Of a stretch of 64,000 nucleotides of DNA, positions 19,137 to 36,838 are shown piece after piece (the stretch's first letter is position 1; every line of letters begins with the position of its first letter). A model generated the notes under the pieces. It ran no database searches. It had not been told where the DNA came from and was given only the letters and a program-made list of their open reading frames with translations. A program made the translations under genes and the position numbers. The DNA comes from Candidatus Thiothrix putei (GTDB lineage: Bacteria > Pseudomonadota > Gammaproteobacteria > Thiotrichales > Thiotrichaceae), in NCBI GenBank assembly GCA_029972225.1, contig CP124756.1, forward strand, positions 3,082,001 to 3,146,000, read 5' to 3'.

Positions 19137-22100
19137 TTAATAGCCCATTAATTGATCCAACGCATCAATCAACTCTAATGCCGGTTTGTGGAAAAATACA
19201 CCTGATCCTGCCTGTTCTGGTGTCATGCCGCGCAAAAATAAATACAGCGCCCCCCCAACATGCTGTTCCCATTCGTACCCCCGCAAACGTTGTTGCAAAT
19301 AGCGATGCAACGCTAAACAATAGATCAGGTATTGCAGGTAATAATGGTGTTCCGCCATCGCTTCTTGCATGGCTAACGGGGTGTAATCAGCCAAAGTTCC
19401 ACCCAGTTCATTTGACTTGTAATCCACCACAAAATATTGCCCCTCCGCCACAAACACCAGATCAATAAAGCCCTTCATATAACCCGTAAGCTCATTAAAT
19501 TTTAGCTTGTCGATAGCATGGTGAATGACCTCCCATTCAAGGGGAAGGTGTTGGTGCAGCAAAGCTTGTAATGGTTTCAGACGTAACCGTTCTACCGGAA
19601 AATAGAATTCGAGTTCATCAAGGCGTTGAGATTTCGGCAGGTCGCAAAGACGCTGCTGGGTAAACGACAAGGGGGTATGTAAGGTGTTTTCGAGTAGCTG
19701 TGCACCTGCTGCCAACCAGCGTTCTGGCAAACCATGCCGTTTTAGTGCAGGACGCAATACAGTGTCATGCTGTGCTGAAAGCGGTTGGGTAAAATCCAGT
19801 TCTTCCAGCATTTTATGCAAACAGCTTCCAGCTTTTGCACCACGTGGAAATACATCGCCACGACCCCGGTCGCTGAGCGCAGTCGAAGCGAATACCAGCG
19901 TGTCATAGTCCGGGCGCTCATCTTCTTTGCCTGCCGCTAAACCGCTGAAACTACCGACTTTGGGTATCGGTGCATAACGTTGCTGGTAACGGCGGATACT
20001 GGGTTGCCATTGCCGATTGTCTGGCTGATAACGTAGCGGCGTTTCATTCACCGGCAATGTCTCATGGCTGATACGGCCTGCGGACTGCTCCACGAGATGC
20101 GCTAATTGGGTATGCATCAAACGCTGACGTTCATCAGGTTGCATTCCTTCTTTACGCAATTTACCGAGAATTTCCTTACTCTGCGGCAATGTGCCGAACA
20201 GCAGCCAACCCAATGCTGAATAGTAGTCGAAATGGTTAAGGCGTCCGCTCACCAAAGTGACGGTGCAATGGTATTTGGCACGGGTCAGCGCCACATACAA
20301 TAAGCGCAGGCTTTCAGCCTGTTCAGCCTCCCGGAAACAGCGCCGCGCAGCATCACCCGCTAGAGCATCGGCTTGCAGACGCGAAACGCCTCCGGCTGAA
20401 CCCGCATCATACCAACTGAACCAAGTGCTGGCTTTGGCATCACGTTCCACCCACAAATAAGGGCAATACACAATACCGTACTCTAGCCCTTTACTTTTGT
20501 GGATGGTGGTAATTTGCACCAAATCCTCATCACTTTCTAAGCGCAACTCATGGGCTTCGTCTTTCTCACCTGCCTCCGCTTTTTGCTGCAACCAGCGAAC
20601 CAAGGCGTGCATTCCATGACCTTGCAAACGACTCTCGGTATGGATGAGTTCTGCTAAATGCAATAAATTGGTAAGGCGGCGTTCACCATCCGCTAACGCT
20701 AATAAGTGTGTATAGCGCTGGCGTTGCAACATCCACTGTCGAAACATCGGCATAAAGCCTTGAGTGTGCCATGTTTTATGCCAACGGTGGAAGGCTTCGA
20801 GTTCGGCTTCCAGTGACGCAGGATTATCGTCCAACACCAACAAGTCTTGTGCAGTAAAACCACACAGTTCAGTCACCAGTGCTTGTTTAAGCGCCGTTTC
20901 ATTACCCGGCTCGGCAATGGCACGTAATATCGCCCGGAAATCAGCCGCTTCACGGGTGCAAAAAATACTGTCACGTGATTTTTGTACACTGGCAATGCCA
21001 CGTGCCAACAACGCCTGCTTAATCTGCTCACCCTGCTGGTTTTCTCGCACCAATACCGCAATATCGCTGCTTTCCACCGGGCGGTCGCCAATCTTAGCTG
21101 CCCCCATACGGGCAGCATTCAACAAACGGGCAATGTCATCAGCAACCGCTTCAGCCATTGCAGCCTGTACGCTGGTGCTATTAAAATCCTCCTCCAGCGA
21201 ATCCCAATCCCACAAACGGATAGGCGACAATGGCGGCTCTACCCGCAAACTGTCTTGAGCTTTACCTGCACTAACCATTTCATAAGCAATATCACTGCGG
21301 AATGGATTGGCAGATTGATCAAATAGGTGGTTCAACCCTTGCAACAAATCGGGGTGCGAACGAAAATTATGTTGCAGCGTGTAGTGGTGCTGAGTGCTGT
21401 TGGCGGCTTTCAGGTAGGTATAAATATCCGCCCCCCGAAAACCGTAAATCGCTTGTTTGGGGTCACCTACGTAAAATACCGGTTGTTCCGGCTTATCGCG
21501 GTAGATGCGCTCGAAAATCTCGTACTGAATCGGGTCAGTATCTTGAAACTCATCAATTAATGCCGCTTGGTATTTCAGCGCCAAACGCGGTGCAAAATCG
21601 GGATGTTGTTCCAAGGCATCGCGCAAATGCAGCAGTAAATCATCAAAAGTAAGAATCCCTAATTGCTGTTTCCGCAGTGGCAATTCAGCACGCAGGTGGT
21701 GCAGTAATTGCCAACGCAAGTGTTCCAACGCGGCTTGTTCACCTTCCTGCTGGGCGTAATCTGCCGCGATTAATGCCTCTACTTGCGCAAAAAACGTATG
21801 CTCTGGGGTGGCTTTACCGTCTTTGGTTTTGTCTGTCAGCACGTTTGGCGTGAAACGCTCAAGCACCTCATGGGGCAACGCCAACGGTTGCGCAAAATAG
21901 GTATCCAGCTTGCCCGCCCAGTTCGGCACATGGCGTTTATTGTAAGTGCTGCCATTGAGCGCCCCGCCTAGCAATAAGCTGACAATAGCGTCACGTTCAC
22001 TTACCCACGTCTGCTGACAGGTTTGCAAGGCTTGGGCAAATGCCGTCTGTAACTGCGCAAATGACTCATTCGTCACCTGCGGCATATCGGTGCGCAAATA

Positions 22101-22670
22101 CGGCTTGCCAATAAAGTTACGCACATCGGCAAGCAAACTGTCCGGGGTCAGGCTGCGTTTTTGCAATAACCGCAAATGCAGCGCATCGGGTTTCAGGAAA
22201 TGTTGATACCAAAACTTGTCAGTGAGTTCAGTCAATAAGCTGTCTTCATTAGTCACCAATTCGGTTTCAAACGGCATTCGTGCTTCAAAAGCATTTTCGG
22301 ATAATACCCGCTTACAAAAACCATGAATGGTAAATACCGCCGCTTCGTCGAAACTTACCAATGCCAATTGCAAGCGCTGAATGCAGTCATGCAACGGAGT
22401 TTCTGTCAGCAATACTTCATACGTTTCCTCATGTGGGCGCTCTTCCAGAAAGGCCAAGGCATCTGCCAAACGCTTACGGATACGGTCACGTAACTCAGCG
22501 GTTGCCGCTTCGGTATAAGTCACTACCAAAACCTTGTCGACGGTTAGGCCATAGACAGCAATGAGGCGCAGGTAGAGCCAGGAAATTGTCCAGGTTTTAC
22601 CGGTTCCGGCGCTGGCTTCGATCAGGTTGGTTCCCACTAAGGATACTGTTTGGGCATTCAGTGTTTGCAT
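19137..22670 (-). CDS. recB: RecBCD enzyme subunit RecB
   Basis: 1177 residues, normal for RecB. It is the 3'-5' helicase and nuclease subunit of RecBCD, which resects double-strand breaks and loads RecA at Chi. UvrD-like helicase motifs are in order: Walker A EASAGTGKT (residues 18-26), LIDEFQDTDPIQ (II), YVGDPKQAIYGFRGAD (III), TTIHKSKGLEY (V) and RLLYVALTRAKY (VI). The C-terminal nuclease has GFIDLVF and VVDYKSNELGG, with the catalytic Asp and Lys. A short palindromic repeat sits in the linker before the nuclease. The ATG giving MQTLNAQTV was preferred to an upstream TTG; no clear ribosome site helps. recC and recD are not in this window. Confidence 0.97.
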   Translation of the reverse strand: MQTLNAQTVSLVGTNLIEASAGTGKTWTISWLYLRLIAVYGLTVDKVLVVTYTEAATAELRDRIRKRLADALAFLEERPHEETYEVLLTETPLHDCIQRLQLALVSFDEAAVFTIHGFCKRVLSENAFEARMPFETELVTNEDSLLTELTDKFWYQHFLKPDALHLRLLQKRSLTPDSLLADVRNFIGKPYLRTDMPQVTNESFAQLQTAFAQALQTCQQTWVSERDAIVSLLLGGALNGSTYNKRHVPNWAGKLDTYFAQPLALPHEVLERFTPNVLTDKTKDGKATPEHTFFAQVEALIAADYAQQEGEQAALEHLRWQLLHHLRAELPLRKQQLGILTFDDLLLHLRDALEQHPDFAPRLALKYQAALIDEFQDTDPIQYEIFERIYRDKPEQPVFYVGDPKQAIYGFRGADIYTYLKAANSTQHHYTLQHNFRSHPDLLQGLNHLFDQSANPFRSDIAYEMVSAGKAQDSLRVEPPLSPIRLWDWDSLEEDFNSTSVQAAMAEAVADDIARLLNAARMGAAKIGDRPVESSDIAVLVRENQQGEQIKQALLARGIASVQKSRDSIFCTREAADFRAILRAIAEPGNETALKQALVTELCGFTAQDLLVLDDNPASLEAELEAFHRWHKTWHTQGFMPMFRQWMLQRQRYTHLLALADGERRLTNLLHLAELIHTESRLQGHGMHALVRWLQQKAEAGEKDEAHELRLESDEDLVQITTIHKSKGLEYGIVYCPYLWVERDAKASTWFSWYDAGSAGGVSRLQADALAGDAARRCFREAEQAESLRLLYVALTRAKYHCTVTLVSGRLNHFDYYSALGWLLFGTLPQSKEILGKLRKEGMQPDERQRLMHTQLAHLVEQSAGRISHETLPVNETPLRYQPDNRQWQPSIRRYQQRYAPIPKVGSFSGLAAGKEDERPDYDTLVFASTALSDRGRGDVFPRGAKAGSCLHKMLEELDFTQPLSAQHDTVLRPALKRHGLPERWLAAGAQLLENTLHTPLSFTQQRLCDLPKSQRLDELEFYFPVERLRLKPLQALLHQHLPLEWEVIHHAIDKLKFNELTGYMKGFIDLVFVAEGQYFVVDYKSNELGGTLADYTPLAMQEAMAEHHYYLQYLIYCLALHRYLQQRLRGYEWEQHVGGALYLFLRGMTPEQAGSGVFFHKPALELIDALDQLMGY
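19870..19891. repeat. Short palindromic repeat inside recB
   Basis: A 5-bp inverted repeat (TCGCT/AGCGA) encloses the 12-base core GAGCGCAGTCGA. The same core occurs at 36648-36659 in maf with different but again complementary flanks. Here, on the coding strand, it is read as A-S-T-A-L-S-D in the linker before the nuclease domain. Confidence 0.7.
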
Positions 22671-22766
22671 GGCAGTGTTCAACAATATTTCATTTAAGTG
22701 TCAACCGAATCTGAGCTTAATCGTTATTCATATTGAACAAAGCCCATAGAGTCCCCTAAATAGTTC

Positions 22767-36256: not shown

Positions 36257-36838
36257 TTATAAGGTCTGGATGCCTGCTGTTGTCAGCAGTTGCGCCGTTT
36301 CAAACAGAGGTAACCCCATCACCCCAGAGTAGGAACCCTCTAAGCGTTCAACGAATACTGCACCAAGTCCTTGAATCGCATAGGCTCCTGCTTTGTCGCG
36401 TGGTTCACCACTTGCCCAGTATGCCAGAATTTCGGAGTCTGTGATGGTACGGAACTTAACCATACTGCGACTCAGCGCTACTTGTGTGCCTGTTACAGTC
36501 GTTAGTGCAACAGCGGTAAGAATCTCGTGCACTTGCCCCGACATTTGCCGCAGCATTTGTTGCGCGTGGGGGAAATCACGGGGTTTAACCAACAATTCGC
36601 CATTAAGAATGCCTAGCGTGTCCGAACCGAGTACCGGTAAGTTCCCTGAGCGCAGTCGAAGGGAAACCGTTTCCGCTTTCAGAATTGCTAAACGTTCCAC
36701 CAACGCTTCGGGTGTTTCTCCCAACAGCGGCGTTTCATCCACATCAGCCGTTTGCACCACAAAACGAATGCCAATTTGTGCCAATAATTCACTGCGACGG
36801 GGCGAAGCAGATGCAAGAATAAGCTGCGGGGCTTGCAT
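36257..36838 (-). CDS. maf: Maf-family nucleoside-triphosphate pyrophosphatase
   Basis: 193 residues. Maf/YhdE proteins hydrolyse dTTP, UTP and modified nucleotides to monophosphates. Conserved: LASASPRRSELLAQIG, GSDTLGILNGE, KPRDFPHAQQMLRQMSGQVH and DKAGAYAIQGLGAVFVERLEGSYSGVMGLP (quoted in part). A short palindromic repeat encodes SLRLRSGN just before the LPVLGSDT strand, in a place where the family varies in sequence. Adjacent to rlmH with one stop next to the next start. Confidence 0.95.
   Translation of the reverse strand: MQAPQLILASASPRRSELLAQIGIRFVVQTADVDETPLLGETPEALVERLAILKAETVSLRLRSGNLPVLGSDTLGILNGELLVKPRDFPHAQQMLRQMSGQVHEILTAVALTTVTGTQVALSRSMVKFRTITDSEILAYWASGEPRDKAGAYAIQGLGAVFVERLEGSYSGVMGLPLFETAQLLTTAGIQTL
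36642..36665. repeat. Short palindromic repeat inside maf
   Basis: TTCCCT and AGGGAA form a 6-bp inverted repeat around the core GAGCGCAGTCGA, identical to the core at 19875-19886 in recB. Here the coding strand reads it as S-L-R-L-R-S-G-N, a different frame from recB. The flanks differ from the recB copy yet stay complementary. Confidence 0.75.

Follow-up and report, generated by a model that had tools for sequence, protein, structure and literature searches.

The window analyzed here, a 64,000-nucleotide stretch of contig CP124756.1 of Candidatus Thiothrix putei, carries two copies of one short palindrome, each inside a protein-coding gene on the minus strand:

36257..36838, minus strand: maf, host gene (193 aa, PF02545)
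36642..36665, minus strand: palindromic repeat in maf; arms TTCCCT/AGGGAA, conserved loop GAGCGNAGTCGA; encodes S-L-R-L-R-S-G-N, Maf residues 59-66
19137..22685, minus strand: recB, host gene (1182 aa; UvrD helicase and PDDEXK nuclease domains)
19870..19891, minus strand: second copy of the repeat, in recB; arms TCGCT/AGCGA, loop identical to that of the maf copy; encodes A-S-T-A-L-S

The maf copy is the 24-base palindrome TTCCCTGAGCGCAGTCGAAGGGAA (TTCCCT GAGCGCAGTCGA AGGGAA), and the recB copy is TCGCTGAGCGCAGTCGAAGCGA (TCGCT GAGCGCAGTCGA AGCGA). The two sequences confirm the observation made in a preliminary description of this DNA: an identical core is enclosed by arms that differ between the copies but are complementary within each, and the copies are translated in different frames (LRLRSG in Maf vs. 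ASTALS in RecB). In a structural model of Maf (mean pLDDT 91.1), residues 59-66 end the helix formed by residues 43-61 and form the loop before the strand at 69-78; in RecB, the repeat-encoded loop lies just ahead of the nuclease domain, the PDDEXK_1 match beginning at residue 951.

Within the window, core matches with up to three mismatches number 3 against 1.57 expected, and at least 3 were obtained in 19 of 100 shuffles, which is not significant; as this count is no more than chance, the case for a repeat rests on the whole genome and on relatives. In the whole genome (4,277,058 bases, one contig), the exact core occurs five times, compared to none for reversed controls, and 66 sites match with at most two mismatches, compared to 2 for controls, so the core is far from confined to maf and recB. 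Across the genus, 343 exact TTCGACTNCGCTCAG sites are present in 14 of 16 genomes and no reversed-control site was found; the number per genome ranges from 0 to 114 (114 in G006, 50 in G005, 25 in G003, 5 in G013, and none in G004 and G008). In a sample of the class, the exact core is present in 25 of 369 genomes, our own included, and a hand count of the table gives 47 core sites in the other 24, vs. 6 control sites. Set against each other, the genus and class counts indicate a repeat family that is concentrated in the genus and has scattered copies elsewhere. The earlier suggestion that such repeats are scattered in many bacterial genomes therefore holds in that the exact core does occur outside the genus, but not in its breadth. 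The 24-base maf hairpin is a member of a dispersed and apparently mobile repeat family of one genus.

Part of the copy number has another source. A single common context accounts for 36 of the 66 sites in the genome, and the one of these that was scanned (L018, near 421786) is an IS66-type transposase gene whose open reading frame contains a copy of the repeat, TTCGGCTTCGCTCAG, in its reading frame; judged from L018, a multi-copy IS66-type gene carrying TTCGGCTTCGCTCAG would have multiplied the repeat passively. A plasmid search using the IS66 stretch returned no match.

Chance as the origin of the likeness is rejected by the genome and genus counts relative to controls. A conserved protein motif common to Maf and RecB is likewise rejected: copies of the repeat are read in five frames, and Maf and RecB of relatives that lack the repeat have other residues at those places, so the likeness is one of DNA and not of protein, as had been proposed. 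The non-significant count in the window speaks for chance or a common motif, which we regard as practically dismissed by these results.

To define the unit, we aligned copies on the core, keeping 136 of 141 distinct contexts and leaving out 5 IS-type contexts. The 66 sites of our own genome contributed 23, once the 36 IS66-context sites and 7 imperfect sites had been set aside; the sample as a whole comprises copies from G000, G003, G013, G015, G012, G011, and G007 (the last three with part of their sites only) and 28 further genus loci, up to three per genome. Twenty regions of G006 entered only the analysis of stem dinucleotides and loop bases in pairs. The covariation, frame, pairing, and stem-dinucleotide counts include orthologous copies repeatedly.

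Read on the opposite strand, the unit is 5'-CG-TT-NN-C-TGAGCGNAGTCGA-G-NN-AA, i.e. a CG tag, a short stem, and a conserved loop, ~27 bp in all. The tag positions are C in 133 and G in 112 of the 136 copies, which makes the tag CG and not GTAG; in the consensus of the 136 copies it is followed by TT, usually paired with the AA of the other arm, so the tag is not CGTC, TGTC, or CCTC either. The stem dinucleotide NN covaries with its partner (CC/GG, GG/CC, CA/TG, CG/CG, TG/CA, GC/GC, and others), and 11 distinct, fully complementary 4-base stems occur among the copies. Flanks pair on average at 3.26 of 4 positions, compared to 1.93 (maximum 2.21) across 2000 shuffles of the 3' flanks, a figure that is not a probability because orthologous copies are counted repeatedly; pairing drops beyond 6 positions outside the core. 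Folded as single-stranded DNA, four of five sequences give a stem of 6-7 bp with a 12-base loop, unlike the stem of 8-9 bp and the 4-5-base loop of CGTC REPs. Since an individual copy is barely more stable than shuffled sequence (z of −0.3 to −2.5 for the five sequences), support for the stem comes from covariation across copies and not from folding energy. An origin of the arms in the target sequence is rejected, since the variable dinucleotide sits within the conserved TT/AA and CG.

The family does not avoid genes in our sample: 103 of 136 copies lie inside open reading frames of at least 200 aa, and random window placements under a similar rule do so in 1550 of 2000 cases, a rate close to that of the repeat. 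Under the 200-aa rule, maf (193 aa) falls outside the 103, and reading frames cut at a region's end are counted at the length visible. Five of the six frames of the core are free of stop codons, and all five are used among the 103 copies (38, 32, 17, 13, and 3); the sixth, with TGA, is never used. Most sampled copies therefore lie within protein genes, leave the frame intact, and add short peptides. In our own genome, the host reading frames match by Pfam a Mur ligase (MurD-like N domain), a formyl transferase, DabA, DUF58, a HAD hydrolase, a class I Met-type tRNA synthetase with tRNA_bind, a tRNA_U5-meth_tr methyltransferase, DUF2063, a di-haem oxidoreductase, an IS66 transposase, and OrfB_IS605; we read several of these as MurD, Fmt, MetG, RlmD, and TnpB. 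In the TnpB-type (OrfB_IS605) reading frame (L095, own genome, near 4103680) and in L120, the repeat lies shortly behind the motif RDVNAAKNL.

The copies are also arranged in a regular way. Among neighbors no more than 100 bp apart, 34 are tag-to-tag, 4 are tail-to-tail, and 1 is in the same direction, so inverted pairs form a unit, the two cores mostly 28-61 bp apart. With G006 added, only 3 of 42 tag-to-tag pairs have the same stem dinucleotide in both halves, compared to ~12-13 expected, and a fraction of 0.0002 of shuffles gave so few; the commonest type, in 22 of the 42, joins a GG half to a CC half. In G006 itself, the loop base N is C in 37 of 39 copies, their stems differing. It is possible that unlike halves guard the pair against forming a long perfect hairpin, an idea that section 14 of PMC3733652 offers for heterodimers.

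Relatives differ in what they carry at the same sites. In the Maf loop of the 16 genus genomes, G000, G005, and G007 have the CG-tagged repeat. G011, G015, G002, and G013 have a palindrome with a GTAG tag, GTAGGGGCGTATTGCATACGCCC, intact or worn; G001 and G009 have two inverted copies of GTAGGGGCGACCGGCGGTCGCCC, another GTAG REP; and the remaining seven (G012, G006, G014, G004, G010, G003, and G008) have no recognized repeat. In a tree of Maf and RecB with the loops removed, G000, G005, and G007 are not monophyletic: the sister of G000 is G012, those of G005 are G009 and G001, and those of G007 are G015 and G011. In a tree of Maf alone, support around these three genomes is weak (0.56 to 0.83). 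At the place of the Maf insert, the repeat-bearing alleles no longer have the W-N residues seen in these sister genomes. A single ancestral insertion followed by precise losses seems a less likely history for Maf than either several insertions at this spot or a transfer of alleles between species, and the disagreement of the insert with the Maf and RecB tree can mean allele exchange instead of transposition.

The RecB loop, between PDYDTL and FPRG..AGSCLHKMLEELDF, contains repeat pieces, as we read them, in 8 of the 16 genomes (G000, G012, G005, G009, G001, G015, G002, and G006; those of G001 and G006 as inverted pairs) and an unrelated short stretch in five (G007, G004, G013, G014, and G008); G011, G003, and G010 are unassigned. 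A scan of genome contigs for RecB loci found the core in 0 of 80 among the matches listed, none of which is titled as this genus, and four palindrome-like GTAG or CGTC matches are present among the listed RecB loci. According to section 15 of PMC3733652, two Xanthomonas species carry different REPs at nearly the same position in recB.

We also compared eight sites of our own genome with up to five close relatives; a locus was returned in 30 of 40 comparisons. Of the five relatives, four share the MurD-like copy, which G007 lacks. Three of five (G009, G005, and G007) have the DabA copy, missing from G012 and G001, and three of five have the oxidoreductase copy, missing from G012 and G007. All four relatives compared have the DUF2063 copy, and the HAD and FGE-sulfatase copies are each present in the single relative compared. 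At the formyl transferase site (L016), three of five relatives share the copy; G012 (L388) and G007 (L397) have another repeat there, C-rich/G-rich, which seems to face opposite ways in the two. Within the DUF58 gene, G000 (L082) and G012 (L383) have the core at one place but in opposite directions, with the frame unchanged; its form in the three remaining relatives compared is divergent. The repeat is present or absent between relatives as blocks of ~27-36 bases. No target duplication or clean element end could be read at the empty sites, where the near flanks differ too.

These comparisons bear on two explanations that do without a transposase. Repair or template switching could have copied or captured short hairpins, which recombination then passed as alleles from species to species: clean ends and target duplications are not seen, the Maf insert is off the Maf and RecB tree, and the DUF58 core has been inverted in place, all of which would suit such a history. 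However, the conserved tag and loop, the regular tag-to-tag pairs, and the uneven copy number (0 to 114) look like those of an amplifying element, as does the near-uniform loop of the G006 copies, and we consider this explanation improbable. The second explanation is a sequence with a function as DNA (uptake signal, protein binding site, or terminator) that arises by point mutation. Uptake signals are short and dispersed, at times stand in inverted pairs, and also occur inside genes, and the repeat resembles them in size, dispersal, pairing, and genic copies; but point mutation would hardly produce presence and absence as blocks, counts that range from 0 to 114 between congeneric species, and stems that vary while their pairing is kept, so the likelihood of this explanation is very small.

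We searched for a mobilizer. Y1/RAYT genes are present in the genus, and GTAG palindromes flank several of them. The flanking palindrome is GTAGGGGCGTATTGCATACGCCC in G011, where it is also found in maf, and GTAGGGGCGACCGGCGGTCGCCC in G006; G001 and G010 have a version with one extra base. By motif scan, the CG-tagged repeat was found at 0 of 50 Y1/RAYT loci (30 plus 20 loci, with some genes in both sets), and tblastn with three RAYTs found a RAYT near the repeat at 0 of 182 loci, within fetched flanks of ~0.7 to 1.5 kb. G005, G003, and G013, with their 50, 25, and 5 sites, have no match to PF01797 or NF047646; G004 and G008 have 13 and 10 PF01797 matches, yet no repeat sites; and the NF047646 matches of G006, with its 114 sites, are weak and below the cut-off of the model. 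It is therefore unlikely, though somewhat less so than repair or template switching, that GTAG-type RAYTs of the genus move the CG-tagged repeat in trans by tolerating its CG tag: GTAG-flanked RAYTs do exist in the genus, GTAG repeats use the same Maf loop, and some TnpA-REP enzymes tolerate tag changes according to the text of PMC8266576, but no examined RAYT locus carries the repeat, and G005, G003, and G013 have sites without a match to either model, G004 and G008 matches without sites. The CG-tagged repeat looks like an orphan in its genus, as do the CGTC REPs, which section 16 of PMC3733652 reports without association to transposase genes.

Two features of the Y1/RAYT genes may be recorded here. 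In our own genome, the Y1 genes L096 (near 555196) and L097 (near 4028118) have inverted repeats with GGGGTCAG alongside, which fit the GGGGWSAS motif of TIR-flanked transposases given in section 16 of PMC3733652. The RAYT reading frames L189 (G011) and L193 (G006) contain an in-frame GTAG palindrome (RRGVLHTP and RRGDRRSP, respectively), with more copies flanking them.

Among known systems, the CGTC REP superfamily, as described in the text of Di Nocera et al. 2013 (PMC3733652), is like the CG-tagged repeat in being a short palindrome whose unpaired tag begins with CG, in its predominance of tag-to-tag (HH) pairs with common heterodimers, in having some copies in genes, recBCD included, and in having no linked transposase gene. 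It is unlike the repeat in its tag (CGTC, compared to CG plus a usually paired TT) and its layout (a stem of 8-9 bp with a 4-5-base loop, compared to a short stem with a conserved 12-base loop); moreover, the REPs treated in that text are mostly intergenic, whereas most sampled CG-tagged copies are in genes. At three loci in other genera of the class (L272, L280, and L283), the same core is enclosed by arms ATCC/GGAT followed by GAC, which is GTCATCCTGAGC on the opposite strand; by sequence, these copies look like a CGTC-type relative of the CG-tagged repeat.

GTAG REPs and REPINs, in the accounts of PMC3733652, PMC3116915, and PMC8266576, likewise use inverted pairs of short palindromes as a unit, are dispersed, and have several stem types, and the CG-tagged repeat has the size and abundance of a GTAG REP, a palindrome of 20-40 bp in many dispersed copies. 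Unlike them, it has no GTAG tag, no linked RAYT that we found, and no mainly extragenic location. True GTAG REPs with RAYTs are present in the same genus and occupy the same Maf loop. The Rickettsia palindromic elements, to which the repeat had been likened, are palindromes in frame within conserved protein genes (PMC2229807; PMC3733652, section 6), and the likeness stands for this behavior; it does not extend to membership, as those elements are 105-146 bp long (PMC2229807) compared to a unit of ~27 bp here, and differ in tag, in stem and loop layout, in sequence, and in host. Section 6 of PMC3733652 places RPE-4 and RPE-6 among the CGTC REPs, from which the repeat differs in tag and in stem and loop layout. 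By anatomy, REP/REPIN elements are nearer kin than the Rickettsia elements: in behavior the repeat matches REPINs and the in-frame elements of Rickettsia, but it departs from the GTAG class in tag and transposase link and from the CGTC class in tag and stem-loop layout. No description of its sequence was found in the open-access literature searched; the consensus lists in the figures of PMC3733652 lay outside the search, and the sequence may already be in print.

Taken together, the observed family, the covariation of its stems, the pairing of its copies, the use of its frames, and its presence or absence between relatives lead us to consider the CG-tagged repeat, with a probability of roughly 0.7, a short, orphan, REP/REPIN-like non-autonomous mobile palindrome that spreads as DNA and is neutral with respect to genes; the mobile-palindrome interpretation of the preliminary description is thereby supported. 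The unit would move as a single-stranded hairpin or hairpin pair, and a HUH (Y1) transposase acting in trans would read its tag, stem, and loop, as has been published for TnpA-REP recognition (PMC8266576); the typical form of spread would be the tag-to-tag inverted pair of unlike halves, inverted pairs having been proposed as the moving unit of REPINs (PMC3116915). Insertion would be blind to genes, and selection would retain in-frame insertions in tolerant loops or linkers, which can survive because five of the six frames of the repeat have no stop; the Maf and RecB copies would be two survivors of such insertion. The putative mobilizer may have been lost, may be of an unrecognized kind, or may lie outside the sampled loci. 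The lack of a linked transposase, G005 with no Y1 match, the lack of clean ends, the weak folding, and the conflict with the tree at Maf count against this reading.

The interest of the family lies in its gene-neutral spread and in the insertion loops that it has in common with unrelated REP families. REPs are named extragenic, and the CG-tagged family ignores gene borders in our sample, placing short peptides, read from five frames of the repeat, in conserved proteins; its border-blind spread and the shared loops amount to a natural experiment on which protein sites accept an insert. The coexistence in one genus of RAYT-linked GTAG families and an orphan family sharpens the question of what moves REPs that lack a RAYT. 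More tentatively, and with less than even confidence, we suggest that CG may define a third class of REP tag, served by an unknown enzyme that does not avoid genes, and that the loops of Maf, RecB, and the Fmt-like protein may be docking loops where unrelated palindromes swap between sister species, in which case REPs would continually supply conserved proteins with in-frame peptide changes.
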